Shown here: one piece after another, positions 14,150-34,284 of the stretch
Numbering within the stretch: position 1 is the stretch's first letter
How the letters are laid out: each line of letters begins with the position of its first letter
Source: Planctomycetota bacterium
GTDB taxonomy: Bacteria; Planctomycetota; UBA11346
DNA: 64,000 nucleotides
Assembly: GCA_023150565.1 (NCBI GenBank)
Contig: JAKLKR010000005.1
Span: 1 to 64,000, forward strand
Direction of reading: 5' to 3'
Program-made: the position numbers and the translations under genes
The notes under the pieces: model-generated
What the model was told of the DNA's origin: nothing
What the model saw: the letters and a program-made list of their open reading frames with translations, nothing else
The model's database searches: none

Positions 14150-15970
14150 ATGCCCGGCGAGCCCCCCGAGATCATCCAGCTGCCCGAGGCGGTGGCCAAC
14201 CAGATCGCCGCCGGCGAGGTGGTCGAACGGCCGGCGGCGGTGGTGAAGGAGCTGGCCGAGAACAGCCTGGATGCCGGCGCCACCCGGGTGACGGTGCGCA
14301 TCGCCGATGGCGGCCGCCGCCTGGTGGAAGTCGAGGACGACGGCCACGGCATGCGCCCCGAGGACCTGCGCCGCGCCCTCGGCCGGCACGCCACCAGCAA
14401 GCTGCGCTCGGCCGACGACCTCTTCCGCATCGCCACCCTCGGCTTCCGCGGCGAGGCCCTGCCGTCGATCGCGGCGGTGAGCGAGCTCGAGCTGGTGTCG
14501 CGGCCGCACGCCGCCCCCGGCGGCTGGCGGCTGGCCCTGGCCGGCGGCCAGGAGACCGCCTTCGCCCCCTGCGCCGCCGCCCCCGGCACCCGCATCGCGG
14601 TGCGCAACCTGTTCTGGAACGTGCCGGCGCGGCTGAAGTTCCTCAAGAGCGAGGCCTCCGAGGCCGGTCACGTCACCGACCAGGTGCTGCGCCTGGCCTT
14701 ATCGCATCCCCAGACCGCCTTCCGCCTGGAATCCCAGGACGAGGCGGTGCTCGACCTGCCGGGGGCGGCCGACCTCGCCCAGCGCATCCGCGCGCTGTTC
14801 GGCGCCGGCTTCGCCGACGGCCTGCTGCCGGTGGCGAGCGCGGGCGGGGCGATGGAGGTGACCGGCTTCGTCGCCCATCCGCGCGAGGCCAAGCCCACCA
14901 GCAAGCGCCAGTACCTGTTCCTCAACGGCCGCTTCGTGCGCGACAAGCTGCTGCTGGCGGCGGTGCGCGAGGGCTTCAAGGGCTTCCTCGAGCCGCGCCT
15001 GCACGGGGCGGTGGTGCTGCACCTCGATCTCGATCCCGCCCAGGTCGACGTCAACGTGCACCCGACCAAGGCCGAGGTGCGCTTCCGCTCAGAGGGCGAG
15101 GTGTTCGCCCTGGTCAGCCGCGCCATCCAGGACGCCCTCACCGGCGCCGAGCGCGCGCCAACCCCCCTGCTCGACGCCGCCGAGCGCGCCGGCGGCGCGG
15201 TGGTGCAGCGCATCGTGGTCAAGCCGGCCGCCCCACCCCCGACCGTGGTGGTGCAGGAGCGCTTCCTGCCGCCGGAGCCGCCCCCGGTCGCGCCCGGCGC
15301 GCCGCAGGTGCTGCCGCCGCCGCCCCGCCCGGCGCGCGCCCAGGAACCGGCCCCGGCCTACCAGGCGGCGCCGCCGCCTGCCCCCGTGCCGGCCGCCCCC
15401 CCTGGTCCGCGCATCCGCCAGGTGGTGCAGCTCGCCGACACCTTCCTGCTGATCGAGACCGAGCGCGGCATCCGCCTGGTCGACCAGCACGCCCTGCACG
15501 AGAAGGCGCTGCTGGCGCTGCTCGATCCCGCGGTCGGCGACGCCGCCCGCGACGGCCGCCAGGAGCTGCTGGTGCCACGCCTGGTCGACCTGGCGGCGCA
15601 CGAGGTGGCGGCGGTGAAGCCGCACCTGGCCGAGCTGGCGGCCTTCGGCATCGAGGCCGAGGTGTTCGGCCCCACCCAGCTGGCGGTGCGCGCCCACCCG
15701 CCGCGGCTCAGGCGCCTGGACTGGGTGCGCTTCTTCGCCGACCTCGCCGCCGACGGCGCGGCGCGCACCGCCGAGGCGCTGCGCGAGCGCTTCCGCCACC
15801 GCGCCGCCTGCCATGCCGCGGTCAAGGCCGGCCAGCGCCTGTCGCCCGACGAGCAGCGCGAGCTGGCCGAGCTGCTGTTCCGCGTCGACGGGCTCGAACA
15901 CTGCCCGCACGGCCGGCCCACCACCCTCGACCTGACCTTCGCCGACCTGGCCAAGAGGTTCCAACGATGA
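14150..15970 (+). CDS. mutL: DNA mismatch repair protein MutL
   Basis: IIQLPEAVANQIAAGEVVERPAAVVKELAENSLDAGAT, GFRGEALPSIAAVSEL, QYLFLNGRFVRDKLL, VDQHALHEK. Confidence 0.96.
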   Translation: MPGEPPEIIQLPEAVANQIAAGEVVERPAAVVKELAENSLDAGATRVTVRIADGGRRLVEVEDDGHGMRPEDLRRALGRHATSKLRSADDLFRIATLGFRGEALPSIAAVSELELVSRPHAAPGGWRLALAGGQETAFAPCAAAPGTRIAVRNLFWNVPARLKFLKSEASEAGHVTDQVLRLALSHPQTAFRLESQDEAVLDLPGAADLAQRIRALFGAGFADGLLPVASAGGAMEVTGFVAHPREAKPTSKRQYLFLNGRFVRDKLLLAAVREGFKGFLEPRLHGAVVLHLDLDPAQVDVNVHPTKAEVRFRSEGEVFALVSRAIQDALTGAERAPTPLLDAAERAGGAVVQRIVVKPAAPPPTVVVQERFLPPEPPPVAPGAPQVLPPPPRPARAQEPAPAYQAAPPPAPVPAAPPGPRIRQVVQLADTFLLIETERGIRLVDQHALHEKALLALLDPAVGDAARDGRQELLVPRLVDLAAHEVAAVKPHLAELAAFGIEAEVFGPTQLAVRAHPPRLRRLDWVRFFADLAADGAARTAEALRERFRHRAACHAAVKAGQRLSPDEQRELAELLFRVDGLEHCPHGRPTTLDLTFADLAKRFQR

Positions 15971-22396: not shown

Positions 22397-23731
22397 TCAG
22401 GCGAATTCGGCGTAGATCGCCTTGATCGCGGTGGCCAGGTCGGCCTCCTCGACCCCGACGATGATGTTCTGCTCGGACGAGCCCTGGTCGATCATGCGCA
22501 CGTTGACCCGCGCCTTGGCGAGGGCGGTGAACAGGCGCGCCGCGGTGCCGATGGCGTGGTTCATGCCCTGGCCGACGGTGGCCACCAGGGCCATGCCCGG
22601 GCTGGCCTTGACGTTGTCGGGGTGGACCGCCGACTGCAGGTCCTCGAGCAGCTGCTCCAGGCGCGAGGTGCCGTCCTTGTCCACCAGCTGCTTGTCGCTC
22701 ACCACCACGCTCATGGTGTCGATGCCGGTGGGGGTGTGCTCGTAGCTGATGCCCAGGCGCTCGAAGGCGTCGAGCACGCGGCGGCCGAAGCCGACCTCGC
22801 CGTTCATCAGCGCCTTCTCGATCTGGATGACGGTGAAGCCCTTGGTGCCGGCGATGCCCACCACCACCTGGTGGCCGGGATCGCGGCTGGCCACGATCAT
22901 GGTGCCGGCGTCGGCGGGTCGGTTGGTGTTGCGGATGTTGATCGGGATGCGCTTCTCGCGCACCGGGAACACCGCCTCCTCATGCAGCACGTTGGCGCCC
23001 ATGTAGGACAGCTCGCGCAGCTCGCCATAGGTGATCTCGTTGATCGCCTTGGCCTCGGCCACCACCCGCGGGTCGGTCATGAGGAAGCCCGACACGTCGG
23101 TCCAGTTCTCGTACACCGCCACCCGGCCGGCGAGGGCGCGCGCCACCACCGAGCCGGTGACGTCGGAGCCGCCGCGGCTGAAGGTCTTGACCTCGCCGGC
23201 GGCGGACTGGCCGTAGAAGCCGGGGATGACGTAGCGCCCCGGGCCCGACAGGCGGGCGGCGATGGCGTCGTAGCTCCGGGGGTCGAGGCGGCCGGCGCGG
23301 TCGAAGAACACCACCTCGGCGGCATCGACGTATTCGGCGTCGAGCAGGGCGGCGGCGACGCGGCCGTGGATGGCCTCGCCGCGCGAGGCGGCGTAGTCGG
23401 CCGAGGCCCCGCCCTCGATGCGGCGGCGGGCCTCGTCGAGGGCCGGCTTGAGGTCGAGGTTCAGCCCCAGCTCGGCGGTGATGGACAGGAAGCGCGTCTC
23501 GATGGTCTGCCACACCTGGCCGAGCGCCTGGCCCTGGCGGGCGAGCTGGTGGGCGAGGTACAGCAGGTCGGTGACCTTGGTGTCCTTGGCGTGGGCCTTG
23601 CCGGGGGCCGACACCACCACGAAGCGCCGGCGCGGATCGGCATCGATGATGGCCTTGACCTTGCGCAGCTGGTCGGCGGTGGCGACCGAGGTGCCTCCGA
23701 ACTTGGCCACGATATCCTGCGACGCGCCCAT
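22397..23731 (-). CDS. lysC: Aspartate kinase
   Basis: VAKFGGTSVATADQLRKV, FSRGGSDVTGSVVARAL, C-terminal ACT repeats. Confidence 0.93.
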   Translation of the reverse strand: MGASQDIVAKFGGTSVATADQLRKVKAIIDADPRRRFVVVSAPGKAHAKDTKVTDLLYLAHQLARQGQALGQVWQTIETRFLSITAELGLNLDLKPALDEARRRIEGGASADYAASRGEAIHGRVAAALLDAEYVDAAEVVFFDRAGRLDPRSYDAIAARLSGPGRYVIPGFYGQSAAGEVKTFSRGGSDVTGSVVARALAGRVAVYENWTDVSGFLMTDPRVVAEAKAINEITYGELRELSYMGANVLHEEAVFPVREKRIPINIRNTNRPADAGTMIVASRDPGHQVVVGIAGTKGFTVIQIEKALMNGEVGFGRRVLDAFERLGISYEHTPTGIDTMSVVVSDKQLVDKDGTSRLEQLLEDLQSAVHPDNVKASPGMALVATVGQGMNHAIGTAARLFTALAKARVNVRMIDQGSSEQNIIVGVEEADLATAIKAIYAEFA

Positions 23732-23848: not shown

Positions 23849-24283
23849 TCAGCGGGCGCCCACCACCTTGTTCACCCAGGCGACGAAGCGCAGGTCGTTC
23901 TCCATCTTGCCGACGTGGTCCATGGCCAGGAAGTCGCCGCCGCGGCCGTACAAGGCCACCGCCGGGACCAGCTTGGTGTCATCGACCGTGAGCAGCGACA
24001 AGGCCGCCGGGGCCGAATTCAGCGAACGGGCGTCGGGAACCCGCACCACCACCCAGTCGCCCATCTCCTGGGCCCAGCGTTTGAACTCGGCGCCGGCGAT
24101 GAAACGGTTCTCGATCGTGCGCGAGCGGTCGCTCCACGTCCCACCCAGGATGAACACGCAGAGCGGGCGGGCGCGCTCCTTGGCCTTGGCGCGCGCCGCG
24201 TCCAGGTCCGCCACCGAGGTGATGTCCTGGGCCATGGCCCAGGACATCACCAGCGACAACAGCGCGCCGGACACCAGCCTCAC
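23849..24283 (-). CDS. Secreted thioredoxin-fold-like protein lacking the CxxC pair
   Basis: GTG start overlapping upstream stop (GTGA), signal peptide, ARPLCVFILGGTWSDRSRTIENRF aligns by eye with W-C-x-x-C region of thioredoxin-like proteins. Confidence 0.55.
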   Translation of the reverse strand: MRLVSGALLSLVMSWAMAQDITSVADLDAARAKAKERARPLCVFILGGTWSDRSRTIENRFIAGAEFKRWAQEMGDWVVVRVPDARSLNSAPAALSLLTVDDTKLVPAVALYGRGGDFLAMDHVGKMENDLRFVAWVNKVVGAR

Positions 24284-27200
24284 TGCACCACCCGGGTCCA
24301 GCCGCCCACGCCCGAGGCGGTCACGCCGAACGGGGTGTTGGGCGGGGTGCCCTCCTCGGTCAGCAGGTCGTCGTTGAAGGTCATGTTGCGGTTGGGCGGC
24401 CAGTAGACCGGCAGCGAGCCGTAGGGGGCGGTGGCGCTGTTGGCGGCTCCGCCAGAGGGCAACGCGGTGGTGCCCGACCGGCACCAGTCGGGGTCGCCGC
24501 CGCCCCAGCCGGTGAGGGCGCTCCAGCCGGTGTTGCAGTGCCAGCCCATCAGGCCATAGGGCGAGCGCCCGGCGGTGCGGGCCTCGGCCAGCAGGTAGGC
24601 GCGGGTGTAGCGGCACGAATCCATCACCACCAGGCTGCCGGTGTAGTCCATGGTGCGGGTGGTGGTCGGCCGGTTGGGATTGCCCCAGTCCTCCATGAAC
24701 AGCATGGTGTTGACGAAGGGCGCGCCCTCGCCGTTGAATACGCGGTACTTGGTGGTGGGCTGGTTGTTGGTCAGGATGCAGGTGCGGTACTGGGTATCGA
24801 GCGATACCGGGAAGCCGCTGACCCGCGCCAGCGGCAGGGTGGTGCTGTCGGTGACCCGGCCGTCGTCGATCGTGCCGATCCCGGCGCGTTGATAGTTGGC
24901 ATAGGTCCAGGAGTTGGACAGCAGGGTCACGTTGTCGCCCATGATCGCCAGGGGGGTCCACTTGGGGGTGTTGTCGGTACCCTTCACATTCCAGCCCTTC
25001 TGGGTGTTGTTGAGGTTGCCCTTCACATACAGGCTGTTGGGGGTGACGATGCTGGTCTTGCCGGTGCCGAACTTGGTGCTGGTGCTGACCCAGCCCCAGT
25101 CGATCGCATCGCCGTTCGAGAGCATGATGCCGTGGTGGAAGTCCTCCCACGGGATGGGGGCCTGGAGCTTGCCGCGGTCGGCACTGTTCACGGCGACCAG
25201 GCGGTTGGTCAACGCGGTCTTATCGGTGGCGGGCGCGGTATAGCTGGCGGTGGCGGCGTAGGCCAGCGGCACCAGGTTGGAATTGCTCAGCACCGAGGTC
25301 TGGTTGGGCAGGTCCGGGTTCCAGGGGTTGTAGGTGGAGGGGGTGGGATTGCGTGGATAGCGGTTGTAGCGGGCGGCATAGATCAGGCCCGAAAAGCGGT
25401 TCTTGAGCAGGTCGGTGGCGAGCGGGTTGACCCCCTGGTAGGAATTCGTCGACCACTTGTAGGCGGCGTTGGGCAGGGTGCGGTTCTTGAGGTAGTCCTG
25501 CAGGTTCACCAGGTTGATGTCGAGCACGGTGGTGCGGGCCAGGCGCTCGCGTTCAACGGTGGTGAGATAGCTGCCGTTGGTGGTGGTGCCGGTCTCCTTC
25601 TCGACCCAGGTTGAACGCGCGAGCGGAACATAGGACGAATCGAGGTCGCCCTCGTTCCACCAGCGCGACTGGCTCCAGAAGAAGCGGGTGTTGTAGAACC
25701 AGTTCTCGGAGGCGATGCGGTCGGCGTCGGCTCCGGAACTCGCCTTGGTGTAGCTGAAGAAATCCTCGGTGATGTCCAGCGGGCCCCAGAACACCTGGTA
25801 CTGGCTGCACAGGTAGCTGGTCAAGTTGTCGATCAGACGTCCCGCGGTGGTGGCCGAGGCGTGGACCCAGAGGGCCGCGCTCGCCTCCCAGTCGGCGTTG
25901 TTGAGGGTGGTGGCGGGGTTGACCTTGTTGGTGGAGTCGGCGCTGGCGGTCTCGACCTGCAGGCCGGCGAATTTGACCTGGACCCGGCGGTCACGGCAGT
26001 TGTTCTTGAGCGAGTTGCTGGACTGGTCCCAGGGGTTGGGCAGGTAGGCGTTCGACTGCACGCACGGGCCGACGATCCAGTCGGTCGACCAGGCGGCGGG
26101 GATGGCGCTGTCGGCCGAGGTCAGGAAGTCGGTCGGCATCCCGTCACCGGTGGGCCCGGCGGTCCGGGTGGCACCCGCCGCCACGGTGCGCCAGCGGGCA
26201 TCGGTGCCGCCGGTGGGGGCGCTGGTGGAGGCGAAATACTTGAAGATGAACCCAGTGGAGTCCTTCTCGATGCGCAGGAGCAGGATGGTGACCTTGGCCC
26301 AGTTGGGATTGGTGGGCGGGGTCGGGCTCACGGTCGAGGTATGGTTGGCGGTGCACTCGTAGATGTCACCGTTGTACCACACCAGGCTGCCGGCCACGGT
26401 GGAGGAATTGGCCCGGTAGCTGATGGATGAACTGCCCCAGCGCGGGATCTGGGCGTCTTCCCAGAACGGCGGGTTGACCGGGGTGGTGGAGTTGTAGGTG
26501 CCCAGGCCGGGACCGGGCGAAGCGTCGGTGGTGGCTGCGGTGCCGGTGCCGGTGTTGTAGAACGGCTTGTAGAGCGCGGTGTCGTTGCTGCCGTTGTAGC
26601 CGTCGGAACGGAAGACGATGGAGCCGTCTGCTTCGGTGGGCTGGAACGGGGTCAGGGTAGGGGGCATGTAGCTGGTGGTCCAGGTGGTCCAGGGCGCGAC
26701 CGCGGGTGCCGACGCAAGGGCCGAGGTGGGCAGGCCGCTGAGCGGCCCCGTATACACCATGGGCGGGAAGCTGCGGGTGGTGGGCAGGGTGGTGACCAGG
26801 TTGGGCTGCAGGTATTGGCTCGACAGCCAGGTGAAATTGGCCAGGGAGGCGGTCGACGGGGTCAGCACCTGCATCAGCACCGGGGTGCCGAAGGCCCAGG
26901 TGCCTCGGGCCGAGATGTAGGAATTGGTCTCGATGCGCTTGTAGGTGGCGGAGCTGCCATCATGCAGGATGGCGACCTTGCGCGACCCGGTCAGGGCGGC
27001 CGGGTTGCTGGCGGTCAGGGTGAGGGTCGCCGCCGTCACTGCGGCCGGGGCGGTGATGGCCGTGGTGTTGGCGAGATCGGTGGGGTTGGCGGGCTGCGAG
27101 AAGGTGGGCGGGGTGGCCCGCGCGGCGAAGCTGGTGACGCCAGATACCGCTGCCTTGATGTCGTTCTGCAACTGGGTCTCGGTCAGGCCTTTGGACGTAT

Positions 27201-30200
27201 ACCAGGTCTTGGCGGCGGCATAGCTGCCGAGGTTGGTGAACACCACCGCCGAGGAACCGTCCGACCAGGGCGAGTTGGTCTGTGGATAGCTTTTCGGTGT
27301 GCCATAGCTGTCCACGATGTGGCTTGAGGGGGTGTAGGTGGCCCCCCCGTCGTTGGCCCAGATCGGGATGCGGTAGGTGGTATTGGAGATGAAGCCCTGC
27401 CCAGGGTTGAAAGAGACCGAGGTGTAGGTGCCCGACGGGGCGGACAGGTTCTGCAAGGTCCAGTTCTTGGCCGAGGCAGTGGGATTCGCGGCGTAGCCCC
27501 CGCCGAAGGTGGGATCGATCCAGATGGTCTTGCCGGTCCAGCCATTGGCCCAGGTGGCGGCGGTGACGGGGGTGGTCACCGCGGTCATGCTCTGCTGGAA
27601 ATTCACATTATGCCCGCTCAGGGTCCAGTCCTCGTAGCCGCTGTAACCCTGGGAGGTGCGGTTGCGGTACCAGGTGGTGCGGGATTCCTTGCGGAACTTC
27701 CAGAACTTCTTGATCTCGTAGGGGCCACGCACCAGGCTGAACGCCGGGCGTGCCACCGGACCTTCACCGGTCGAGATGGTGGCGGCCGGCAGGGAGCAGG
27801 CGGTGCCGCTGTCGACCGCGCCGGTGGCGTCATTACCCTGGCTGACGATCTTGTCGGTGTAGGTGTTGGCGACGTTGGTGTTCACCGCAGAGGCGCCGTA
27901 CACGCTGCCGGTGGCGGGCTTGATGTCCTGGATGATGCACACGTTGCCCGGCTGCAGCGAGCCGATCTTGGTGGCGTCATCGGCGCTGAGGGGATCGCCC
28001 TTGCCGGTGAAGTAGCGGTTGGTGCCGGCGATGGTCACCGACTTGGGCACGCTGCGCTCGAACCGTCGCTGCAGCACGATGCCGCGCTCGGGCGAATAGC
28101 ACAGGGCGACATAGGGATCACGGCCGTTGAGCGCGTTGGTCGAGAGGTTGAGGGTGGTGGTGACCTCGGCAGCGGCACGGTTGATCGGCCGCACCATCAG
28201 CCCGGCGAGCGGATCATAGTTGGGTGCGGTCCATTGCGGCTGGCCGCTGGCATCGACCGGGGTCAGGAACTTGCCGGTGGCGTCAGGCACCAGGCGGGTC
28301 TGGACCGAGGTGAAGTCAGCCTTCGAGAAGTAGTTGTCGGCCTTGGTCATGTCCACCACCGGACCGGTGTTGTTGCTGACGTTGGCGCGGGTGCGCTTGA
28401 GGTGGATCACCCGCCAGTTGTCACGATAGAAGCCGAAGGGGTCCTGCGACACCTCGTTGGCCACGTCGTTGCCGCTGTAGGAGGCGTCGCGGTTCCAGGC
28501 CGACTTGCCGTCGCCGCCGCGCCGCACCGCGGTGGTGACGGTGAGCACGCCGCCGAGCACGGGATTGCGGGTATAGGTCTGGTTGTGGACGGTCTTGTCG
28601 GCGACATTGTTGATGAACTCGCTGTAGATGCCGTGCACCACCTTGGTGTTGTAGGTCGAGGGGTTGGCGGTGCCCGGCATCGACGAGACGAACATCTCGG
28701 TGAAGGGCCACAGGGTGATGTCCTTGTGCTTGCCGTAGGCGTAGGGCACGAAGTCGGCGCTGGCCGAGGTGCGGTCGGGCAGGTAGCCGCCGGTGGCGTC
28801 CTTGCCGAAATAGCGGAAGTCCGGCACCGGGCGCTCGCGGATGATCAGGCCGACCTTGGCCGGCAGGGCGCTGGCGGGGACCGCCGTGCCGTCGATGGCG
28901 GTGGCCTTCCAGCCGATGAAGCCGTAGTCGTCGGTGGCCGAGTTGGCCATCACTCGCTGGAAGTAGAAGTCGTTGGATCCCAAGGCGTAGCGCACGTACT
29001 GGCCAGGCGACTCGATGACCCCGCTGGGGGCGCTGGCGAGGGTGGCGGTGTAGGCGGTGGTGGTGCTGCCAGCGCTGTCGGTGATGAACAGCGGCAGGGC
29101 GGCGGTGTGGTCATCGCCACGTTCGCGCCAGGCGGTCATCTGGGCGCTGGTGCTGGGCAGGCTGGACAGGTCGGGATAGAGGACGGCCTGGGCTTCGAGC
29201 GGACGGTTGGCCAGGGTCTCGGGCAGCTGCTTCACCTGGGCGCCGGTGACCTTGGTGCGGGCGAAGCCGCTGAAGCCGTTGGGCGGATTGCCCTGCGAGG
29301 CGGTCAGCCACAGGTTGGTGGTGCGCTCCTTGTCGCGCGCGTCGTTGCCGCTGTCGGGGGTCTGCCAGTTGCCGGTGATGGCGGTGCCGTTGATCTGGCG
29401 CTTGGTGTCGTCGGCCGCCAGCTGGGTGGCCGGCGAGGTCACCAGCTTGCTGTCGCTGGTCACCCGGTAGGGGTTGACGAAGCCGCCATTGAAGGTGGCC
29501 GCCGCCAAGGTGCTGTTGACCGGGCCGTCCTGGGCGTCCAAGGGGGTGCCGGTGAAGATCAGGCTGTAGTGGCTGGTGGTGGCGCTGGCCGGGGCCCAGC
29601 CCGGGTTCTTCATCGGGAAGCCGCCGAAGAAACCGTACATCGCCGGCTTGGCCAGGCGGAAGATGCCGTCGACACCGGTGACGCGCACGCGCGCATCCTT
29701 GATCTCGCTCCAGTAGCTGGTCTGGGTCGGCGGCGTCTTGTTGAGGTTGCCGCCGATGTTCTTGGCGACGTAGCTGGTGTAGGAGCTGGTGCCGGAATCG
29801 TAGAAGCGCACGCGGTCGTTGTAGACGTAGGTGGTGGTGGAGTTCCATTCCATCGGCCCCAGGTAGGTATCGCCGTTGGTCGGCCGCACGGCGTTCCAGT
29901 CGTTGGTCTCGGTGCTGGCGCCGAGGTAGATCGAGCCGTTGGAATGGACATTGCCGAACACCTTGATGGCAGGCCCGTGCGACAGCTCGAGGTCGCCCTT
30001 GACCCCCTTCTGGGCATAGAAGATCACATAGCGGAACAGCGGTTCCTTATTGACCGAGACGTAGCGTGCCCCCTGGGCGCGGGCCCTGGTATCGCCCTCG
30101 ATCGTCTTGTTGGACCCGTCATCGGTGCACAGGCGGGCCTCGGCCGCGACCCGGAACAGATAGATGGTGTCGTTGGAGCGCCAGGCGTCGGTGGTGGGGG

Positions 30201-30654
30201 CGCTGGTGAGCTTGAAGGTGGACGGCGGCTCCCAGTTGATGTCGGGCGAGGGATTGGCGAGGAAGGTGATGGTGTTGCCGCTGGCGTCCTTGGGCGCCGA
30301 GCGCACCGGCTCGACCTTCCAGCGCACCTCGCACTCGCCGAAATACTCCAGGCCGTAATTGTTCGACCATTCCGCGAACTGGCTGGGATCGCCGGCCTCG
30401 GCGAGCTGGATCACGCGCTGCTCGCGGCGGGCCAGCACCGCTTCCAGCGCAGCCTGCACCTTGAGGTGGTCCTGGCCGGCGGAGGCCTGCTTGTGGCTGT
30501 AGATCGCCCCCTCGCTCGACAGCAGGATGAGCGCGGCGACCATCGCCACCACCCCGAGGGCGAGGATGAGGGCGGTACCGGAACGCGGAGAGCGGTTCCG
30601 GCGGAACGGGAGGGAGCCGTGGGTGATCATGGGAGCTCCTGCGTCAGGTATCAT
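24280..30654 (-). CDS. Giant (2,124 aa) PilX/GspK-like pseudopilin-type protein
   Basis: N-terminal single TM (SGTALILALGVVAMVAALILLSSEGAIYSHKQ) in a pilus operon; start 30654 or 30630. Confidence 0.7.
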   Translation of the reverse strand: MIPDAGAPMITHGSLPFRRNRSPRSGTALILALGVVAMVAALILLSSEGAIYSHKQASAGQDHLKVQAALEAVLARREQRVIQLAEAGDPSQFAEWSNNYGLEYFGECEVRWKVEPVRSAPKDASGNTITFLANPSPDINWEPPSTFKLTSAPTTDAWRSNDTIYLFRVAAEARLCTDDGSNKTIEGDTRARAQGARYVSVNKEPLFRYVIFYAQKGVKGDLELSHGPAIKVFGNVHSNGSIYLGASTETNDWNAVRPTNGDTYLGPMEWNSTTTYVYNDRVRFYDSGTSSYTSYVAKNIGGNLNKTPPTQTSYWSEIKDARVRVTGVDGIFRLAKPAMYGFFGGFPMKNPGWAPASATTSHYSLIFTGTPLDAQDGPVNSTLAAATFNGGFVNPYRVTSDSKLVTSPATQLAADDTKRQINGTAITGNWQTPDSGNDARDKERTTNLWLTASQGNPPNGFSGFARTKVTGAQVKQLPETLANRPLEAQAVLYPDLSSLPSTSAQMTAWRERGDDHTAALPLFITDSAGSTTTAYTATLASAPSGVIESPGQYVRYALGSNDFYFQRVMANSATDDYGFIGWKATAIDGTAVPASALPAKVGLIIRERPVPDFRYFGKDATGGYLPDRTSASADFVPYAYGKHKDITLWPFTEMFVSSMPGTANPSTYNTKVVHGIYSEFINNVADKTVHNQTYTRNPVLGGVLTVTTAVRRGGDGKSAWNRDASYSGNDVANEVSQDPFGFYRDNWRVIHLKRTRANVSNNTGPVVDMTKADNYFSKADFTSVQTRLVPDATGKFLTPVDASGQPQWTAPNYDPLAGLMVRPINRAAAEVTTTLNLSTNALNGRDPYVALCYSPERGIVLQRRFERSVPKSVTIAGTNRYFTGKGDPLSADDATKIGSLQPGNVCIIQDIKPATGSVYGASAVNTNVANTYTDKIVSQGNDATGAVDSGTACSLPAATISTGEGPVARPAFSLVRGPYEIKKFWKFRKESRTTWYRNRTSQGYSGYEDWTLSGHNVNFQQSMTAVTTPVTAATWANGWTGKTIWIDPTFGGGYAANPTASAKNWTLQNLSAPSGTYTSVSFNPGQGFISNTTYRIPIWANDGGATYTPSSHIVDSYGTPKSYPQTNSPWSDGSSAVVFTNLGSYAAAKTWYTSKGLTETQLQNDIKAAVSGVTSFAARATPPTFSQPANPTDLANTTAITAPAAVTAATLTLTASNPAALTGSRKVAILHDGSSATYKRIETNSYISARGTWAFGTPVLMQVLTPSTASLANFTWLSSQYLQPNLVTTLPTTRSFPPMVYTGPLSGLPTSALASAPAVAPWTTWTTSYMPPTLTPFQPTEADGSIVFRSDGYNGSNDTALYKPFYNTGTGTAATTDASPGPGLGTYNSTTPVNPPFWEDAQIPRWGSSSISYRANSSTVAGSLVWYNGDIYECTANHTSTVSPTPPTNPNWAKVTILLLRIEKDSTGFIFKYFASTSAPTGGTDARWRTVAAGATRTAGPTGDGMPTDFLTSADSAIPAAWSTDWIVGPCVQSNAYLPNPWDQSSNSLKNNCRDRRVQVKFAGLQVETASADSTNKVNPATTLNNADWEASAALWVHASATTAGRLIDNLTSYLCSQYQVFWGPLDITEDFFSYTKASSGADADRIASENWFYNTRFFWSQSRWWNEGDLDSSYVPLARSTWVEKETGTTTNGSYLTTVERERLARTTVLDINLVNLQDYLKNRTLPNAAYKWSTNSYQGVNPLATDLLKNRFSGLIYAARYNRYPRNPTPSTYNPWNPDLPNQTSVLSNSNLVPLAYAATASYTAPATDKTALTNRLVAVNSADRGKLQAPIPWEDFHHGIMLSNGDAIDWGWVSTSTKFGTGKTSIVTPNSLYVKGNLNNTQKGWNVKGTDNTPKWTPLAIMGDNVTLLSNSWTYANYQRAGIGTIDDGRVTDSTTLPLARVSGFPVSLDTQYRTCILTNNQPTTKYRVFNGEGAPFVNTMLFMEDWGNPNRPTTTRTMDYTGSLVVMDSCRYTRAYLLAEARTAGRSPYGLMGWHCNTGWSALTGWGGGDPDWCRSGTTALPSGGAANSATAPYGSLPVYWPPNRNMTFNDDLLTEEGTPPNTPFGVTASGVGGWTRVVQ

Positions 30655-32126
30655 CGCGGCAGGCCGACTGCGTCGGTACCGAGGATCTGGGCGATGGAAT
30701 CATTGGATTCGGAGTTTTTGTCAGTCTGGGTGTTGCGGCCGCGCATGGCGAGGGTGGTTTCGACCAGGCGGGTGACGGTGGCGCCGGTGCCGGCGGTGGC
30801 GCGCGCGCCCAGGTACAGGCGGACGCGGACCTGGTTGATGTCGAAGCCGTTGAAGTCGTTGACCGCGGGGAATGCGGTGCGGTCGGCAGAGGACAGGCTG
30901 GAGACGGAGCGGAAGGTGTCGAAGCAGATGCGCATCACATGGTCGGACAGGATGCGGTCGACCACCAGGCCATAGGTGCCGTCATCGGAGATCTTCTGCC
31001 CCAGTTCGGTCCCCCAAGCCGGGTTGGTGATCTCGCCGCCGAGGGTGGGGGAGGTGCCGGTCCACTTGGCCTTGTGCGCCCGCACCAGGCGTCCGAAGCC
31101 GATGCGCGACGGGACCACGCAGTAGGAATAGGCCTGGAGGTCGGCAGCGTAGGCGTCCTTGATCGCGCCGGCGGTGGCGGTGGCGGCCAGGGGCGGGATG
31201 TAGTCGAATTCGAAGGCCCGGCCGGACGTGGTGCGCCAGTTCATGCCGATCGTGCCGGCAGTGGGGTCGCTGAGGTAGCCGGCCTCCATCACCACCCCAT
31301 AGGGGAAGTTGTTGGCGTTGTAGATGGTGGAACCGGGGATGGCGTAGGCGTTCCAGCCGATCACCGCCCCGCCCAGGTCCTTGGTCGCGTACCAGCCGGA
31401 GGCGCGGAAGATCTGCAACTGGTCGTGATACCCGGGGGTGGACCATTGCTGCCGGGTGCCCTTGAACTTGAGCAGCGGGGCCATGTCGCTGGCGCCGGTG
31501 TAGCTGTTGGTGCTTTCGTTCCAGGCGGAGACGGTCGAGCGCAGGAAGAGGATCTCCTGGCTGCGGGCGTAGAAGGAGCGGTACCAATAGTCGAGCTGGG
31601 CGCCGACGGTGGAACCGGTGGCGGTGCCACGGCTCACCGCGTCGGCGTGGGCATCGGTGGCGTTCTTGGTGAAATCCTCGGGCACCCCGATGTCGACTTG
31701 GCCCGCATCGTGCCAGCTGGTGGGGTGGTGGGAGCCGTCGATGCCCCCGATCACCACCATGTTGGCCGGGCGGTGGGACCAGGCGAACTGGGAACCCAGG
31801 CCGGTGGTGATCGCCGGGGAACCTGGCGACTGGATCTGGACAAAGGGGTAGTAGCGCAAGGCGCGGTCGGCCGTGGCCGAGGCCCCGCTATAGGAGCTGC
31901 GCGGCTCGGTGGGGAACTCCCAGGCCGAGGAGGCGAGATCTTCGCGGATCGAGGCCATGATGCGGGTGGATTCCACCGCCAGATCGTCCTGCATGGTGGC
32001 GAAGCGGTCGTAGTTCTGCCCCGCCATCAGCGACTCCATCGCCAGGGCCACGACGGTGGCGAGCAGGGCGATGGAGATCATCACTTCCATCAGGGAGAAG
32101 GCGCCGTGACGTCGGGTGCTGTTCAT
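30651..32126 (-). CDS. Prepilin-type N-terminal cleavage/methylation domain protein (PilW/GspJ-like)
   Basis: MNSTRRHGAFSLMEVMISIALLATVVALAMESLMAG. Confidence 0.85.
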   Translation of the reverse strand: MNSTRRHGAFSLMEVMISIALLATVVALAMESLMAGQNYDRFATMQDDLAVESTRIMASIREDLASSAWEFPTEPRSSYSGASATADRALRYYPFVQIQSPGSPAITTGLGSQFAWSHRPANMVVIGGIDGSHHPTSWHDAGQVDIGVPEDFTKNATDAHADAVSRGTATGSTVGAQLDYWYRSFYARSQEILFLRSTVSAWNESTNSYTGASDMAPLLKFKGTRQQWSTPGYHDQLQIFRASGWYATKDLGGAVIGWNAYAIPGSTIYNANNFPYGVVMEAGYLSDPTAGTIGMNWRTTSGRAFEFDYIPPLAATATAGAIKDAYAADLQAYSYCVVPSRIGFGRLVRAHKAKWTGTSPTLGGEITNPAWGTELGQKISDDGTYGLVVDRILSDHVMRICFDTFRSVSSLSSADRTAFPAVNDFNGFDINQVRVRLYLGARATAGTGATVTRLVETTLAMRGRNTQTDKNSESNDSIAQILGTDAVGLPR

Positions 32127-32134
32127 GGGCGGGC

Positions 32135-32902
32135 TCATTTCTTCCGTCCGGTGATCAGTTCCAGGGAACGGTCGCGGTCCGGTTCGCTGGGCAGGCAATA
32201 GACAGCGATCACGCGGATCACCAGGGGGTCGTTGGCACCGACCTGGTTCCAGGCGGAGTTGGTAGTGTCGAGCCGGAAGCGGGCCCGTTCGGTGGCGCTG
32301 GCGAGCTTGGCCTTGAAGTCGGCCGGGGTGGTGTAAGCGGCGTCCTCACCGTCCATTAGGCCGGGTTCGCTGGTGATCGGGACGCCGCTATCGTCGAGCC
32401 GGGTGATCCCGCGGTAGAACTCGACGTAGACGCGCAGGTTGAGCCCCAGGGGCTTGGACAGCAGGCCGGCGGCGATCAGGCTGTCATCCCCGGCGGTCTC
32501 GACCAGCGGGCCACTATTGCCACCAGGGACGACCGGCAGGTCCTGAAAGCGGTATTGGGCCCAGGGGGCAGAGCCGATCTGGTCTTCGTGGGCGGCCTGC
32601 AGGCGATCGACGAGGGAAAACAGCACCTGGTTCACCGCCACCACGTCAGGGGCCTCCTTGCGCGTGCTGTTCAGGTTGGCCATGTTGCCCAGGATGCTGG
32701 TGATCGCGATCGCGATGATCGCGAAGGCCATCATGATCTCCATGATGGTCATGCCGGCGCGCAGGATCCCGCGGGCGGGAACGCGGCCTGGAACGGTGGT
32801 GGGCTGGTGCATGGGCGTGGTATCCCGCTGGTCGGCGGTCATGGTAGACATCGGGAGGCTGATCCCCAGGTGGACGAGTGTGGAGATATCCACCAGGGCC
32901 AT
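32135..32902 (-). CDS. Prepilin-type protein (PilV/GspI-like)
   Basis: ARGILRAGMTIMEIMMAFAIIAIAITSILGNMANLNSTR; start overlaps pilT stop (TAATG), although an internal start is possible. Confidence 0.8.
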   Translation of the reverse strand: MALVDISTLVHLGISLPMSTMTADQRDTTPMHQPTTVPGRVPARGILRAGMTIMEIMMAFAIIAIAITSILGNMANLNSTRKEAPDVVAVNQVLFSLVDRLQAAHEDQIGSAPWAQYRFQDLPVVPGGNSGPLVETAGDDSLIAAGLLSKPLGLNLRVYVEFYRGITRLDDSGVPITSEPGLMDGEDAAYTTPADFKAKLASATERARFRLDTTNSAWNQVGANDPLVIRVIAVYCLPSEPDRDRSLELITGRKK

Positions 32903-34284
32903 TACTGCCCGGGTCGTCGCCAATTGCTGGCCTGGCCGCCGGCCGGGGGCGGCGGCGGGTTGGGTGGCAGCTGTCCCCCGCCCTGGGGCGGGCGTTGGGG
33001 CTGCTGCTGATGGGCCGGCGGCTGTGCGTCCTGGCCCTTCATCTTGACCACCATCGGGCCGCCCTGCCCGGGCGGGGCGCCACCCACCACCTCGGCGGCG
33101 GGGGCGGCCTTGGCCGGGGCCGCCGGGGCGGGGGCCTCCTTGGGCGCGCCGCCTTCGGCCATGCGCTTCAGTTCCGCCTGGCGGGCCTGGTCGGCGGCCT
33201 GGATCTGGGCTTCGACATCGTGGCCCAAGCCCTTGAGCTTCTTGATGATGTCTTCCTTGTCGAGGCTCTTGTCGTAGGCGTCCATGGGCTCGACCTTGCC
33301 GTCCTTGACCAGCTTCTCGAGCGCGTCGTTGAGCAGCTGCATGCCGTAGCGCGCGCCCACCTGCATCTGGCTGGGGATCTGGAAGGTCTTGCCCTCGCGG
33401 ATCAGCGCCGACACGCCGGAGGTGACCAGCAGGATCTCGAGCGCGGCGCAGCGGCCGCCGCCCTTCTTCTTGAGCAGGTTCTGCGCCACCACGCCCTTGA
33501 GCGAGCCGGCCAGCATCAGGCGGATCTGCTCCTGCTCCTCGGCGGGGAACTGGTTGATGATGCGGTCGACGGTGCTGGCGGCGGTCGAGGTGTGCAGGGT
33601 GCCGAACACCAGGTGGCCGGTCTCGGCGGTCTCGATCGCGATGCGGGTGGTCTCGAGGTCGCGCATCTCGCCCACCAGCACGATGTCCGGGTCCTCGCGC
33701 AGGGCGGCGCGCAGGGCGCGGGCGAAGGACTTGGTGTGGGCGTGGACCTCGCGCTGGTTGAGCAGGCACTGCTTGGCCGGGTGCACGAACTCGACCGGGT
33801 CCTCGATGGTGATGATGTGCTCTTTGCGGTTGGCGTTCAGCCAGTCGACCATCGCCGCCAGGGTGGTGGACTTGCCCGAGCCGGTGGGGCCGGTGACCAG
33901 CACCAGGCCCTTCTTGAACTCGAGCATCTTCATCACCCCCCAGGGCAGCCCGAGCTGCTCGGCGGTGAGGATCTTGTCGGGGATGCGGCGGAACACCCCG
34001 CCGGGCCCGAAGCGGTCCATGAAGTAGTTGCAGCGGAAGCGTCCGCAGCCCTCGAGCGCGTAGGCGAAGTCGGTGTCCCAGCCCTCCTCGAACTCCTTGA
34101 GATTGCGCTCCGGGCAGATCTCGGAGAGGATCTTCCACATCTGTTCGCGCGACAGCTTGGGGATGTTCGGCAGCGCCACCATGTCGCCGCTTTCGCGGAT
34201 CATCGGCGTGTGCTCGGACGTCATGTGCAGGTCCGAGGCCTTTTTTTCGGTCATCATGCGGAACAGCTGGTCGATCCAGGCCAT
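32902..34284 (-). CDS. pilT: PilT/PilU family type IV pilus retraction ATPase
   Basis: GLVLVTGPTGSGKSTTLAAMVDWLN, HIITIEDPVEFVH, LVGEMRDLETTRIAIETAETGHLVFGTLHTSTAASTVDRII. Confidence 0.93.
   Translation of the reverse strand: MAWIDQLFRMMTEKKASDLHMTSEHTPMIRESGDMVALPNIPKLSREQMWKILSEICPERNLKEFEEGWDTDFAYALEGCGRFRCNYFMDRFGPGGVFRRIPDKILTAEQLGLPWGVMKMLEFKKGLVLVTGPTGSGKSTTLAAMVDWLNANRKEHIITIEDPVEFVHPAKQCLLNQREVHAHTKSFARALRAALREDPDIVLVGEMRDLETTRIAIETAETGHLVFGTLHTSTAASTVDRIINQFPAEEQEQIRLMLAGSLKGVVAQNLLKKKGGGRCAALEILLVTSGVSALIREGKTFQIPSQMQVGARYGMQLLNDALEKLVKDGKVEPMDAYDKSLDKEDIIKKLKGLGHDVEAQIQAADQARQAELKRMAEGGAPKEAPAPAAPAKAAPAAEVVGGAPPGQGGPMVVKMKGQDAQPPAHQQQPQRPPQGGGQLPPNPPPPPAGGQASNWRRPGQ

Follow-up and report, generated by a model that had tools for sequence, protein, structure and literature searches.

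The minus-strand gene that we call Big (24280..30630 of the window, the whole 64,000-nucleotide stretch of DNA analyzed here) encodes a giant minor-pilin-like protein of 2,116 aa. Judged by its sequence, Big is an expanded pseudopilin with an HpsA-type core into which carbohydrate-binding modules have been inserted. On balance, we favor the view that it is a giant modular minor pilin that presents a carbohydrate-binding adhesin and serves as the tip-capping K subunit of a V-J-K set comparable to GspI-GspJ-GspK. The location at the tip, the binding, and the use of Big in a pilus rather than in a secretion pseudopilus are what we infer from the evidence that follows.

A giant gene closes a tight pilT operon

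The frame that the earlier note reported was confirmed at 2,124 open codons (24280-30654, minus strand, in the ORF list of the window). The first ATG, at 30654, overlaps the stop codon of the upstream gene; the in-frame ATG at 30630, which is preceded by CAGGAGCTCCC, is the likelier start and yields the product of 2,116 aa. Codon third positions are GC rich in the manner of coding DNA (GC3 = 0.92; genome GC, 72%), and homologs in other genera span the full length. An end-to-end alignment of 11 giants, one of them the window protein, shows 27 to 33% identity (about 30%) and many invariant residues, mostly near both ends. Given the coding-type GC3 and the full-length homologs, Big is a true gene and not a chance frame. 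Relatives were detected in 22 of 61 related genomes, counting the source genome, and none were found on searching viral contigs and plasmids. One giant relative appears frameshifted close to its 3' end (L045, 10077-16337), and in genomes of family f31 (G171, G197, G157, G209, and G251), several core matches contain a single in-frame stop codon.

Big is the last of four minus-strand genes that almost touch one another, in the order pilT-V-J-Big. The first, pilT (32902..34284), encodes a 460-aa retraction-type ATPase (TIGR01420, 438 bits). V (32135 to about 32851; about 238 aa) is a prepilin of the GspI/PilV/ComGE type by resemblance, and J (30651..32126; 491 aa; PF07963), with Ala at −1, is a prepilin in the GspJ/PilW position. 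Both prepilins have Glu5, and together with pilT they are the neighbors that the earlier note had recognized upstream of the giant frame. No major pilin, assembly ATPase, or H subunit was seen in the operon. Over the whole source genome (6 Mb) there are at least 150 N_methyl matches and five PilT proteins over the cutoff, besides a single prepilin peptidase and seven matches to secretins. PilY1 had no match in 61 genomes in a search run without a positive control. Big is followed downstream by a small gene for a thioredoxin-like protein (within 23849-24277) and by an aspartate kinase gene (22397-23731). An aspartate kinase is also encoded close to the complete or fragmentary giant pilin module at L048, L049, L050, L054, and L068; a functional link is not evident.

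The N-terminus resembles that of a tip minor pilin

The N-terminus of the window protein reads MITHGSLPFRRNRSPRSG/TALILALGVVAMVAALILLSS. Residues 1-18 (30577..30630, minus strand) form a predicted type III-like prepilin leader that ends in R-S-G (residues 16-18), and the single N-terminal hydrophobic segment follows it directly. Aligned homologs share this arrangement: a mostly basic leader is closed by Gly (Ala in one) and succeeded by a hydrophobic stretch that has no Glu at +5. Glu5 is missing from all 28 aligned Big sequences and is invariant in the V (23/23) and J (24/24) homologs. From the alignment and a single-sequence AlphaFold2 model, residues 19-79 (30394..30576, minus strand; TALIL, with no Glu at +5) are predicted to form the pilin alpha1 helix. 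In that model, which is of low confidence overall (mean pLDDT, 42.5), the helix begins directly after Gly18, reaches a pLDDT of about 60 to 70 over much of its length, and gives way to strands. The C-terminal model was unusable (pLDDT, 27.8) and was discarded. A fold search with the low-confidence N-terminal model returned nothing below an E value of 0.1; EpsI:EpsJ, at rank 10 with an E value of 0.81, was not counted as evidence.

In type 4 filaments, a minor-pilin tip complex is capped by a subunit that lacks Glu5 (PMC10191384). As read from the sequence features above, the N-terminus of Big is probably of this tip minor pilin type. The earlier note had described the N-terminal transmembrane segment as PilX style. 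Its position and the pilin-like N-terminus were right, with a helix predicted, albeit at low confidence, just behind the leader, but the window protein matches neither PilX_N (PF14341) nor N_methyl (IPR012902/PF07963) nor a GspK model.

A shared core has grown by insertion

Two regions of Big belong to a core shared with much smaller proteins. Near the N-terminus, homolog alignment defines the motif PLFxYxIFY..GDLE..G.VHSNGxIY (residues 197-237; 29920..30042, minus strand); at the other end, a C-terminal domain (residues 1826-2116; 24283..25155, minus strand) is common to relatives of 570 aa and, through those, to HpsA. Of 248 genomes from the phylum, 53 have a member recognized by a profile of this C-terminal core. 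Complete frames are about 540 to 890 aa long outside the window's family and about 940 to 2,470 aa inside it, where sister lineages measure 940 to 1,570 aa and the giants, one clade, about 1,900 to 2,460 aa. In a tree of the C-terminal core, the small forms fall on one side (100/100), the forms of 940 to 1,570 aa lie between, and the eight sampled giants make one clade (100/99). Read from these lengths and this tree, Big is the product of stepwise enlargement by insertion. A PDB profile search with the family found nothing.

The insertions include candidate sugar-binding modules. Residues 1405-1442 (26305..26418, minus strand) match the chitin-binding type CBM5/12 (PF02839) with 29.3 bits as a lone segment versus 21.4 bits in the whole protein (cutoff, 26.2), and their best PDB match is chitinase A1 (1ed7; E = 5e-4). 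A second, diverged CBM5/12-like module at residues 262-312 (29695..29847, minus strand) is the homolog of a segment that Pfam assigns to CBM_5_12 in one relative (L039); scanned alone, the window copy had no CBM Pfam match. In the relatives, the inserts between the conserved core ends comprise PA14, GLEYA, Golvesin_C, CBM5/12, and DUF1349/GH43_C2 lectin-like domains, several of which are carbohydrate-binding types. PA14 occurs in all 10 giant relatives, in one of them below the Pfam cutoff; it was ruled out for the window protein, in which a PA14 model made from those 10 proteins finds none. We suspect, from reading the sequence alongside Pfam matches in relatives, that one lectin-type (DUF1349/ConA-like) domain of the window protein is split by a long insertion (GLMVR...YVALCYSPERG, residues about 810-852). 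The inserts of Big add up to roughly 1,500 residues, the greater part of which matched no known domain. That the set of modules varies among relatives is as expected for ligand-binding parts.

V, J, and Big travel together

Linkage was counted over the 29 loci, among them the window, whose upstream DNA could be read. In 25 of these, J is the gene immediately upstream of Big, and V adjoins J in 24 of the 25; at L044 the module is rearranged, with V (14491-15129) behind Big rather than before J. The V-J-Big module is old. V resembles GspI/PilV/ComGE, and 6 of 23 V homologs weakly match Verru_Chthon cassette protein B. In each stretch of up to 20 kb, a prepilin motif search found almost only V and J; the abundance of prepilins in such genomes therefore does not account for the linkage. 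In one genome that has a full module (L051), two divergent family copies about 8 kb apart have no prepilin neighbors (L056, 5964-10409 and 18419-19900).

A pilT gene adjoins the module at seven loci (the window, L039, L040, L043, L046, L048, and L065), upstream, downstream, or divergently oriented, and is not adjacent at some others. The module-adjacent PilT proteins of other loci share 69 to 81% identity with the window PilT; the four other full-length PilT proteins of the source genome share 35 to 50%. The earlier note would have taken its reading as refuted had the homologs been encoded away from pilus genes; they have prepilins next to them in 25 of 29 loci and pilT in seven.

The length of J tracks that of Big: with kinship ignored, rho is 0.89 for 22 loci and 0.81 when only the window's family is counted. 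The length of V does not do so inside the family. Such coupling of J and Big without V is as expected if J touches Big.

A proposed tip adhesin and its alternatives

Under our preferred reading, the prepilin peptidase would cleave Big after Gly18, and V, J, and Big would together prime a retractable type IV pilus as its tip complex. Having no Glu5, Big would sit at the very top. Filament assembly would bring its head of about 2,000 residues outside, where the CBM5/12-type and other beta-rich modules may bind polysaccharide such as chitin-like glycans, matrix, or cell-surface sugars. Retraction of the fiber by PilT would then pull the cell or the substrate. The earlier note had proposed a surface adhesin on, or capping, a type IV pilus-like machine. 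The pseudopilin-like N-terminus, the conserved context of pilus genes, and the sugar-binding modules speak for that proposal; it is held back by the low confidence of the structural model and by an HpsA-type pseudopilus as a competing possibility.

That competitor is the main one. V-J-Big could instead top a secretion pseudopilus (T2SS-like or HpsA-like), its modules engaging an exported polysaccharide or enzyme and not serving as an external adhesin. We give this perhaps a one-in-several chance, since the core matches HpsA of the hormogonium polysaccharide (HPS) system in 12 of 28 sequences (best E, 2.5e-24), the N-termini are GspK-like, and a genome with seven secretins could accommodate a T2SS-like machine. 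Moreover, hpsA sits with the pseudopilin genes hpsB-D, thought to aid polysaccharide export (PMC6495340, PMC4284469). However, a review holds that HPS may exit via a Wza-type protein, with T4P attaching to HPS (PMC12288463), an arrangement that would suit an adhesin as well. Neither a glycosyltransferase nor a secretion gene was seen among the neighbors examined, and the window module, like those of six relatives, has a retraction ATPase gene beside it. A T2SS is not known to have a PilT.

It is improbable, though it deserves some weight, that Big never enters a filament and uses its prepilin-like helix only as a membrane anchor, as a protein of the surface or periplasm. Its size, far beyond that of known minor pilins, would suit this, as would the missing Glu5 and the one genome (L056) in which two copies lie apart from any prepilin gene. 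Against it stand the 25 of 29 loci in which Big is conserved next to Glu5 prepilins and the joint variation of J and Big in length. The last alternative, a fused or chance frame in a genome of 72% GC, where antisense frames are long too, is refuted by full-length homologs in many genera with conserved N- and C-termini, and we assign it a negligible probability.

Returning to the tip adhesin, we tentatively propose, at slightly less than even confidence, that giant tip pilins of about 1,900 to 2,460 aa are specific to this lineage and arose as a 570-aa HpsA-core K subunit grew stepwise by taking in exchangeable sugar-binding modules, uniting a pilin and a PilY1-like adhesin in one chain supported by a co-enlarged J; by extension, cyanobacterial HpsA would be a K-type tip pseudopilin. 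If so, Big would be among the largest pilin-like subunits described, with a whole adhesin built into the tip subunit and no need for a separate PilY1 protein. It would also stand for a class of modular pilins that any survey relying on the N_methyl motif overlooks, and for HpsA, whose function is listed as unknown, a role at the tip of a pseudopilus could be put to the test. A search of open papers for giant or large pilins turned up no description of Big.

Comparison with known systems

The Verru_Chthon cassette, with proteins A to C (TIGR02600, TIGR02598, and TIGR02599), combines a long protein with prepilins and in this respect is similar to V-J-Big. Cassette protein A (TIGR02600) was rejected as a relative, having no match among Big homologs or in the source genome. 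PilY1/PilC tip adhesins share with Big the proposed role of a large modular T4aP tip adhesin; unlike them, Big is pilin-like itself and does not match the PF05567 beta-propeller.

Like GspK, PulK, and PilK, Big comes third in its gene set, behind an I-like and a J-like prepilin, lacks Glu5, and has a hydrophobic N-terminal helix. Weak GspK matches (best, 5e-4) occur in 6 of 28 Big sequences, below the family cutoff and at the N-terminus where coordinates are shown. Big differs in that no GspK globular domain was detected and in its length, which is several times that of GspK (307 positions in the NCBIfam model).

Modular type IV pilins, such as PilB and PilC of Streptococcus sanguinis, join a pilin module to grafted binding domains, and PA14 and lectin modules are already known among them (PMC8179133). 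The binding domains that liken Big to these are CBM_5_12 in Big and PA14 in its relatives. The survey by Raynaud et al. in 2021 was keyed on IPR012902, and its most domain-rich case has 860 residues (PMC8179133). Big lacks IPR012902, is more than twice that long, and carries its modules inside the core rather than at the end; it is far larger than the modular pilins described and is missed by N_methyl-keyed surveys.

The core is related to that of HpsA of filamentous cyanobacteria (NCBIfam NF038301), also a large protein encoded next to pseudopilins. Short and mid-size homologs match its C-terminal core at model positions of about 1320-1445, some with a second stretch. These are the 12 partial matches among 28 sequences, which lie in the C-terminal core where coordinates are shown. 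No individually scored sequence approached the NF038301 cutoff of 400 bits (best, 67), and the window protein had no match, its link to HpsA running through intermediate homologs. Big differs from HpsA in the pilT gene next door and in its inserted sugar-binding modules; no polysaccharide gene cluster was seen, and no glycosyltransferase or secretion gene among the neighbors examined. Published accounts call HpsA a hypothetical membrane protein or list its function as unknown, and they place its gene with those of the pseudopilins HpsB-D (PMC6495340, PMC4284469). Our data suggest that HpsA, too, may be a K-type pseudopilin.
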